The notes under the pieces are model-generated. The model had not been told where the DNA came from. It saw only the letters and a program-made list of their open reading frames with translations, and ran no database searches. Made by a program: the position numbers and the translations under genes. Positions 34,364 through 36,433 of a stretch of DNA of 64,000 nucleotides are shown piece by piece; position 1 is the stretch's first letter, and each line of letters begins with the position of its first letter. This DNA is from Chitinophagales bacterium (lineage in GTDB: Bacteria; Bacteroidota; Bacteroidia; Chitinophagales; Chitinophagaceae), in the NCBI GenBank assembly GCA_025353485.1, contig JANXQO010000007.1, positions 1-64,000 on the forward strand, written 5' to 3'.

Positions 34364-36325
34364 TTAATTACTTATCACAATTAATTCTGTTCTTCTGTTT
34401 AATGCTCTGCCTTGTTCGGTTTTATTATCAGCAATTGGTTTTGTTTCTCCAAAACCTTTAAAGGTTAGCCTGTCATTTTTTATTCCTTTGCCTAATAAAT
34501 AATTTACCACAGCAACTGCTCTTCCTAAAGAGAGTTTAAGATTATCTTCAGGCTTACCTATATTATCTGTATGTCCTCCGATCTGTATTTTTAATTTAGG
34601 ATTTTCATTCATCAGCAGAACAACATTATCCAGCTCGGTTATTGATTCAGGTTTTAACTGCGTTTGTTTTGTATCAAAGAAAACATTCTTTAAAATGATG
34701 CTTGCATTTGTTTCTATCGGTTGTAAAGGGATATCAATTTGGTAAACAGAATCGGGAACATTTTTAGCAAGATTAAAATTGGCTGAATAAAATAAATATC
34801 CTTTGCGGTTAACATTAAAAGCATAGTCTTTGCCGACAGGAAGTGTAACTAAATAATTTCCATCTTCATCAGTTTGTAATTTACTTATTTGTTGTTTGTT
34901 TACAACATCAGTAAGCTCTACTGAAGAGGGTAATCCATTCAGTGTTTTCTTATCAAACACTTTTCCTTTAACCCATAATGTTTTTGCAGGACGAACATCT
35001 TCTCTTAATTCAAAAGTGTAAATATCCAATGCTCCTTTTGTATCACTTCTGTCACTGGCATAGTATGCAGTTTTACCGTCAGAAGAAACAATTAATGAAC
35101 CTTCTTCATCAATTGTATTTATGGGGTAACCTAAATTTTCGGGTTTGCTCCATGTACCATCAGGTTGCTTGCGGGATACGAACAGATCTGATTTTTCACT
35201 GTATCCCTGGTGACCTGTTGAATTAAAATATAAGGTTAAATTATCGGCATGAATAAATGGTGAGCCTTCATTACCTGAAGTATTTATTTCGGGCCCCAGA
35301 TTTTGTGCAGGGCCCCATCTGCCATTGGCATTGCGGTGACTAACCCAAATATCTGTGCCGCCAAAACCACCGGGAACGCTGCTGCTGAAGTACAGATCTT
35401 TTTTATCAGGAGAAAGTGATGGAGAAGTTTCCCAAAATTCTGAGTTAACATTTTGCCCAAGATTTTCTGGTTTGCTCCATCCTTGTTTTGTAAAATAAGA
35501 AATGTAAATATCGCAACTGCCAAGCCCATCAGGAAAATTACATCCGGCAAACACGATCCACTTTCCATCCTGAGAAATGTTTTCTGCTCCCCCGTTATTT
35601 TCGCCTGTGCTAATATTTCCTTCCAATGATTTTGCTTTGCTCCATTGCCCGTTAATAAGATCACTTTCAAAAAAATCTTCTTTTCCTTTAGCCGCAGCAT
35701 TTACTCTTCTTGTAAAAACTATTTTTTTTCCATCAATCGTAATGGAAGGATAATATTCAGGATCTTTTGTATTTATATTTTCACCTAAGTTTTGAGGATT
35801 AAAAACATAATTTTTTGCCGGATGATTTCTTTCGTAATCAATTGCAAACTCATACGTTTTTTTTCTAAACTCACCGGACTTAAAACTTCTGTCATTTAGT
35901 TTTGGAATAGCCAGAAAAGTATTTACCGCATGTAAAGCTTTATCAAATTTTCCTGCGCCTGCCAGGGATATAGAGTAGGGAAGAAGATACGTTTTTGTAT
36001 AAACAGAATCTAATGAAAATGCTTTTTCAAAATGATCTATTGACTCTGTATAATTTTTAATATCAGCATACATACCTGCAACAGAAAGATGTGCATCAAC
36101 AAATTTTGGTTCAATCTTCAGCGCATCATTTATCATTTTTATAGCAACGGGAAAGTTTGAATTATTTGCATTGGCAATGGCTTGTAAATAAATATCTGTG
36201 GCTTTGGTATTTACTTTATAAGGATCATACCATTGAGCAGTGGCAATGTACGATGTAAGAAGTAAGAAGAATAAAATGTACGATGTACGATGTAAGATGT
36301 ACGATGTAAGAAAAGTTTTTTTCAT
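34364..36325 (-). CDS. OmpA family protein with PD40 (WD40-like) repeats and TPR
   Basis: ORF track 34364..36400; Met at 36325 gives signal peptide MKKTFLTSYILHRTSYILFFLLLTSYIATAQ; C-terminal KLKIQIGGHTDNIGKPEDNLKLSLGRAVAVVNYLL..RALNRRTELIV. Confidence 0.92.
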   Translation of the reverse strand: MKKTFLTSYILHRTSYILFFLLLTSYIATAQWYDPYKVNTKATDIYLQAIANANNSNFPVAIKMINDALKIEPKFVDAHLSVAGMYADIKNYTESIDHFEKAFSLDSVYTKTYLLPYSISLAGAGKFDKALHAVNTFLAIPKLNDRSFKSGEFRKKTYEFAIDYERNHPAKNYVFNPQNLGENINTKDPEYYPSITIDGKKIVFTRRVNAAAKGKEDFFESDLINGQWSKAKSLEGNISTGENNGGAENISQDGKWIVFAGCNFPDGLGSCDIYISYFTKQGWSKPENLGQNVNSEFWETSPSLSPDKKDLYFSSSVPGGFGGTDIWVSHRNANGRWGPAQNLGPEINTSGNEGSPFIHADNLTLYFNSTGHQGYSEKSDLFVSRKQPDGTWSKPENLGYPINTIDEEGSLIVSSDGKTAYYASDRSDTKGALDIYTFELREDVRPAKTLWVKGKVFDKKTLNGLPSSVELTDVVNKQQISKLQTDEDGNYLVTLPVGKDYAFNVNRKGYLFYSANFNLAKNVPDSVYQIDIPLQPIETNASIILKNVFFDTKQTQLKPESITELDNVVLLMNENPKLKIQIGGHTDNIGKPEDNLKLSLGRAVAVVNYLLGKGIKNDRLTFKGFGETKPIADNKTEQGRALNRRTELIVISN

Positions 36326-36433
36326 CAGGAAATTTAAATATTTAAGAAAGATAAAATTAGTAACAATTATGCAGTGGCTTATGCAAAGCAATGTTAACAT
36401 GATTTTTTACATCGTACATCTTACATCGTACAT
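36246..36433. repeat. Heptamer repeat H1 (TACGATG family) with perfect 27-bp inverted repeat
   Basis: 36283-36309 atgtacgatgtaagatgtacgatgtaa and 36407-36433 ttacatcgtacatcttacatcgtacat. Confidence 0.95.

Follow-up and report, generated by a model that had tools for sequence, protein, structure and literature searches.

An array of seven-base repeats at the queE-ompA junction was found to encode most of the signal peptide of an OmpA-family protein in the window, the 64,000-nucleotide stretch of DNA analyzed here. We consider it probable (about 0.8) that this array belongs to a large family of dispersed heptad arrays that is passed on by vertical inheritance, that its ompA-side arm was recruited as a signal peptide, and that arrays which landed inside other genes have been kept in frame, as signal peptides or linker inserts. 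Arrays of the family are set at gene edges, often in convergent pairs, with the GATGTNN strand reading from gene to spacer. Of the two arms at queE-ompA, one lies at the queE stop codon and the other extends past the ompA start codon, where the coding-strand NNACATC gives the heptapeptide T-S-Y-I-x-H-R in any frame. A basic start (MKK), the heptapeptide, and a short Leu/Phe insert (ILFFLLL) would together make a Sec-type signal peptide, predicted to direct export, which, as comparison with relatives shows, replaced an ancestral 20-aa one in the source lineage.

The ompA gene (34364..36325, minus strand) encodes a TPR-PD40-OmpA family protein of 653 aa (Pfam PF07676, PF00691), and the gene upstream of it (36439..37080, minus strand, PF04055) is a queE-like radical SAM gene, named queE by reading. 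The initial annotation had described a period-7 array and a perfect 27-bp inverted copy between the queE stop codon and ompA, and both were present at the positions that it gave. The ompA-side array (36246..36311, plus strand) is degenerate, with a period of 7 and 9.1 copies; read on the minus strand, it encodes the TSYILHRTSYIL..LTSYI part of the signal peptide. The opposing arm (36403..36433, minus strand) lies 5 bp downstream of the queE stop codon, which abuts it, and contains, at 36407-36433, the 27-bp perfect complement of 36283-36309. Over 31 nt (36283-36313 and 36403-36433), the arms were 97% complementary, and DNA folding gave z = -8.25. With one mismatch allowed, the window contained 9 matches to GTNNGATGTNNGATGTNNGA, whereas 100 dinucleotide shuffles contained 0, which excludes chance as the source of the heptad pattern.

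The spacer from the ompA start codon to the queE-side arm (36326..36402, minus strand) contains a promoter-like block, GTTAACATTG-N19-ATAATTNTTNCTAATTTTAT, that was conserved in a six-species alignment. The spacer is conserved down to this block (GTTAACATTG-N19-ATAATTCTTGCTAATTTTAT), also in G021, where there was no clear array. This conservation supports the earlier suggestion that the promoter and 5'UTR of ompA lie in the loop, and it is consistent with a promoter in the spacer between the arms. The queE-ompA spacer of G014 (L099) carries an unrelated long inverted repeat, GCCACGGAGAACACGAAAGAACGGA ... TCCGTTCTTCCGTGTCTTCCGTGGC, which we take to be of a motif type widespread in other phyla.

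Translation of ompA from the ATG at 36325 gave MKKTFLTSYILHRTSYILFFLLLTSYIATAQ|WYD, and the array supplies most of this 31-aa signal peptide (coding segment 36233..36325, minus strand), as had been proposed. No in-frame ATG, GTG, or TTG was found between the ATG at 36325 and the mature part, so the real start codon does not lie downstream of the repeat. By composition, the peptide has a basic n-region (MKKTF..HR), a hydrophobic h-region (ILFFLLLTSYIA, Kyte-Doolittle 2.40), and an AxA-type site (ATA-Q), as in a Sec signal peptide. The h-regions of native homologue signal peptides have Kyte-Doolittle values of 2.7-3.0. The repeat alone is weakly hydrophobic (0.31 over 12 aa), and the hydrophobic core of the OmpA signal peptide depends on the non-canonical ILFFLLL segment.

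We compared this signal peptide with those of orthologues in the same GTDB genus; homologue names point to Ginsengibacter, Chitinophagaceae. The repeat-derived form was present in the source genome (G000), G009, G012, and G017, and in a decayed version in G018; heptad units were also found at the queE stop codon in G009, G012, and G017. In contrast, the orthologues that lack the array (those of G001, G003, G006, G013, and G016) carry a short, ordinary MQK...-type signal peptide of the 20-aa type (e.g., MQKILFLSLLLTCFLQTKSQ), and none of these five has a TSYI-rich one. The outgroup genera G026 and G031 have ordinary short signal peptides, and the repeat type is therefore most simply derived. 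At the level of sequence comparison, these results show that the OmpA signal peptide of the source lineage is array-derived and not native, in agreement with the initial annotation, and OmpA would be exported by it.

The survey was extended to 120 database homologues together with the genus members, 125 of which had a called signal peptide. Repeat-type signal peptides (n=38) were 22-55 aa long, and native ones were exactly 20 aa in 18 of 19 cases. At least 5-7 switches between the repeat and native types were counted on a tree of the mature parts, using a strict label for signal-peptide type, with the 54 of 125 homologues that had ambiguous signal peptides excluded and with the proviso that metagenome assemblies could mix signal peptides. 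The mature parts of P0048 and P0057 share 97% identity, but their signal peptides are unrelated. P0001 is 92% identical to OmpA over the protein, and its signal peptide is 14 aa longer, which corresponds to 6 heptads.

Such changes in unit number between homologues, and the presence of 7-nt repeats near a start codon, which is the classical anatomy of contingency loci, could point to phase variation, in which gain or loss of one heptad in the signal peptide would shift the frame and switch OmpA off. However, the tract is degenerate rather than made of near-perfect, slippage-prone units, with only two identical neighboring units (36276-36289); all listed OmpA homologues keep the tract in frame; and array hosts include housekeeping genes. 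We regard phase variation as highly improbable.

When the genome and its relatives were searched for the repeat, the ompA copy proved to be one of about 45 GATGTNN sites in its own genome (relaxed patterns and profile scoring), in a heptad family of several dialects. A three-unit pattern with one mismatch gave 55 matches in this genome, compared with 1 for a control pattern; counts for the whole genome rest on pattern searches together with the window and sampled 20-kb stretches. Among degenerate arrays in 20-kb stretches of seven genomes (664 kb) and the window, 24 had period 7, at most 6 had any other period from 4 to 13, and a triplet-shuffled control gave 0. The repeat is a heptamer as first described, but not one fixed TACGATG unit: the unit is GTNNGAN, i.e., GATGT followed by NN. 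In units beside a fixed anchor, which were not selected by pattern, G, T, G, A, and the last T were conserved, while the fourth base was nearly random and matched background composition. Most arrays have 3-5 units. Unit number per arm peaked at 4 in ascertained arms, partly because a four-unit pattern was searched, and unascertained arms had 2 (four arms), 3 (ten), 4 (nine), or 6 (one) units; a preference for four units was withdrawn as partly an effect of ascertainment.

Sites were largely orthologous between species, with arrays at orthologous positions in G009, G017, G018, and G003 that differed mainly at NN and the seventh base. Substitution frequencies along the unit were G.09, T.03, N.27, N.33, G.11, A.03, and N.25, compared with.17 in flanks. 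A count with one pair per site gave 11/332 changes in the core, 70/244 at variable positions, and 389/2310 in flanks, the core figure being biased low because the count requires units in both sequences. The core constraint may come either from selection on a 7-nt-spaced core or from arrays rewriting one another by concerted evolution. Because NN drifts at orthologous sites and the GATGT core there stays nearly constant, our working model, which is plausible but falls slightly short of even odds, is that a putative oligomeric DNA- or RNA-binding protein binds the 7-nt-spaced core, and that the protein-coding uses are by-products.

Heptad arrays could instead be microsatellites made locally by 7-nt steps of a slipping DNA polymerase and then mutated; a slippage origin of heptads is Mrazek's hypothesis, as it is cited in PMC4679880 and PMC4692102. 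Bacteria as a whole favor period 7, many phyla have homogeneous GATGTNN arrays, and the unit gain in the P0001 signal peptide would be expected from slippage. Identical NN was nevertheless found in only 66 of 320 pairs of neighboring units, against 72.5 expected, so that NN values are independent and little memory of slippage is left. Local slippage also leaves unexplained the orientation rule, the conservation of the core beside a free NN, and the recurrence of the same core across dozens of sites. Slippage by itself is improbable as the explanation.

Placement was examined at 116 scored sites relative to our own ORF calls, not curated annotation. Ninety-two sites lay at gene boundaries, and 20 (about one in six) lay in frame inside ORFs of at least 180 aa. 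The boundary sites were in tandem (65), divergent (16), and convergent (11) spacers. For single arms with an unambiguous nearer edge, GATGTNN read from the gene edge into the spacer in 45 of 47 cases, alike at stops (24/25) and starts (21/22); over all arms, the orientation was outward in 99 of 120. Codon phase looked spread across all seven registers, and seeding of arrays by stop or start codons was rejected. A two-ended break-repair model, under which the orientation of single arms would not depend on gene edges, was also rejected.

Convergent inverted pairs were found at 29 two-armed sites, and same-locus arms at these sites showed no excess complementarity over arms of different loci. The heptad structure is therefore not a maintained hairpin. 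The inverted arms of the initial annotation stand, and the two arms are not a co-evolving hairpin; exact arm pairing at ompA is an exception among the two-armed sites. A hairpin or terminator function was rejected, since the arms lack co-variation and arrays occur in divergent, tandem, and convergent spacers alike.

These data also bear on whether the arrays are selfish MITE/REP-like palindromic elements with heptad-structured ends, mobilized by a transposase in trans, with coding copies as tolerated insertions in the manner of Rickettsia palindromic elements. The arrays are dispersed and lineage-restricted, often have inverted arms, and include in-frame genic copies; moreover, the gene-proximal unit is more often canonical AC (56% vs 34% in mid-array), and the array start is sharp, at ATGT. 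On the other hand, no shared loop was seen, arms of one locus were no more alike than those of different loci, one-armed sites are common, and sites are old and orthologous, with arms of mixed dialect at RibF. Each of the 22 genus genomes, with or without arrays, contains Y1/RAYT transposases (PF01797), and a RAYT link was rejected. Mobile elements of this kind are a somewhat unlikely explanation.

A telomerase-like or DRT10-like reverse transcriptase writing heptads at DNA ends was considered as well. DRT10 reverse transcriptases yield cDNA made of tandem repeats, of 9 nt or other lengths, whose word is specific to each system (PMC12632851), and extension of DNA ends would give what is seen in both arms, which read inward from the flanks. 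However, several dialects occur in one genome, and single arms follow gene edges rather than having random orientation. Apart from G018, the array-bearing genomes (G000, G009, G012, G017, G003, and G021) had no RVT_1 (PF00078) match. A resident reverse transcriptase was rejected as the array writer on this ground, and we consider this origin extremely improbable.

The inherited family also includes arrays inside genes. In the window, a second GATGTNN array (26844..26925, plus strand, encoding EDVRGTGYDIRSVEDVRGTGYDVRSKK) and its opposing arm (26932..26963, minus strand, encoding NIQHRTSNIVH) lie in frame in prmC (release-factor glutamine methyltransferase; 26526..27464, plus strand), in the linker between the PrmC_N and methyltransferase domains. 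In several species, the PrmC orthologue retains an array in this linker, whereas orthologues without one have short linkers. Other in-frame hosts are an E2 acyltransferase (in a linker), RsmE, UbiD, RibF, UvrA (G000 and G003), RluB, a double ABC ATPase (in a linker), TilS (18-aa array insert compared with 1wy5), and an M1 peptidase; many of the sites fall in the linkers of enzymes that are essential (PrmC, RibF, UvrA, TilS). NNACATC is free of stop codons in any frame for 14 of the 16 NN values, and GATGTNN for 8.

At least two more signal peptides in the same genome are array-derived: MKKLFLLFLTSYLLPHTSTAQ in the M1 peptidase and MKTKYFLLLISYSLLLTYHLYAQ in a GHL10 glycosylhydrolase. A lipoprotein signal peptide probably is too. 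Homologues of the M1 peptidase and GHL10 protein often have other signal peptides, among which one from G003 is 7-periodic and T-rich, which is suggestive only. The M1 peptidase homologues P0122, P0123, P0126, and P0127 are 87% identical to the array-type protein and have signal peptides like FLFSLFTFHFSLFLHAQ, readable from the protein sequence as a TTTTCAC-type heptad dialect.

Several heptad words occur within one genome. An intergenic array of a GTGAAAC-like dialect lies in the window (11360..11387, plus strand). At orthologous hosts, the PrmC linker of G009 has (GAAATNA)n with GCAATTC-like units, RibF of G017 has (GTCAATN)n, with arms of different dialects together, and RluB has GTAGTTT in G000 and GATGT in G017. 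The dialects CAATNGG, AAGTAAT with AAACTAC, GTGAAAC, GTAGTTT, and GNCTGTN were noted in the source genome, some convergent pairs mixing two of them, and other-dialect sites were at L133:2850-2972, L357:8270-8344, L358:11423-11511, L363:5272-5303, and L363:8655-8685. In the GATGT-poor G004 and G015, the reversed control pattern AGNNTG matched as many as 10-12 times per strand, suggesting that these genomes have heptad arrays built on a further word. Two other dispersed repeats were observed: a short palindromic repeat like GCCCCTAACCCCTAAAGGGG (L042:2745-2790, the L061 and L162 spacers, and the queE-ompA spacer of G003, L073), and one like TTGTCTGAACCATGATTTATGGGATTAAAGGATT in several spacers (L051:2889-2960, L041:2940-3070, and the L058 upstream spacer).

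The closest known kind of repeat is the heptameric repeats of Xanthomonas (GGGAATC) and Nostoc (GGGGA(C/T)T). These are dispersed in short arrays with a preference for four units, lie 0-50 bp from ORFs, using the non-coding strand when upstream and the coding strand when downstream, and are mostly at sites common to related species, with a minority intragenic; in Xanthomonas, convergent pairs occur 'in close proximity' (Rehm et al. 2015, PMC4692102). GATGTNN arrays likewise are dispersed 7-nt tandem units at ORF edges, with the G-richer strand outward and convergent pairs. They differ in having no G-tracts and a GATGT core followed by a dinucleotide that is free to vary. In addition, a genome holds several dialects, arrays are inserted in frame in signal peptides and essential proteins, and divergent spacers are not clearly avoided (16/92). 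The GATGT core contains no GGG tract and hence forms no G-quadruplex, so the outward placement rule needs another cause. A single class of GATGTNN, GGGAATC, and GGGGAYT, with a shared placement rule and maintenance mechanism, a protein-read core, and a frame-independent heptapeptide that is repeatedly recruited, is a tentative and rather unlikely proposal.

Resemblance to other systems was more limited. TAACTGA heptamers of Beggiatoaceae, Cyanobacteria, and some Bacteroidetes are also tandem repeats, but of one fixed word, mostly intergenic and mainly direct repeats just upstream of start codons (MacGregor 2015, PMC4679880), whereas GATGTNN arrays are degenerate and convergent, and they occur within coding sequence as well as at gene edges of both kinds. 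In-frame insertion of repeats has a precedent in Rickettsia palindromic elements, which, as presented in PMC10969869, are dispersed inverted repeats inserted in frame in unrelated housekeeping genes (Ogata 2000, 2002), in families of about 150 bp with shared sequence and peptide. In-frame insertion into conserved ORFs is common to both, but GATGTNN arrays share the heptad word alone and their arms are independent. GTAG/CGTC-tagged REPs (PMC3733652) are similar as intergenic inverted short repeats in genomes with Y1 transposases, and differ in that GATGTNN arrays are tandem heptads with which PF01797 does not correlate. DRT10 differs in that most array-bearing genomes had no detectable RVT_1 gene. 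No description of heptad arrays as signal peptides was found in the literature searched, an absence that is weak evidence of novelty.

The idea that bacterial heptads are kept for G-quadruplexes is undercut by a G-tract-free family with the same outward rule and convergent pairing, and the core-fixed, NN-free pattern makes heptad function directly testable with a short DNA bait. The source organism is a soil bacterium of the Ginsengibacter lineage, with a seven-base repeat family scattered through its genome. Here, sister proteins differ almost only in the signal peptide, and junk-looking repeat DNA appears to have been repeatedly recycled into working protein parts, as an export tag and as in-frame inserts in housekeeping enzymes. 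These findings suggest a clear bacterial case in which non-coding repeat DNA would have become a working targeting signal, repeated in several genes.
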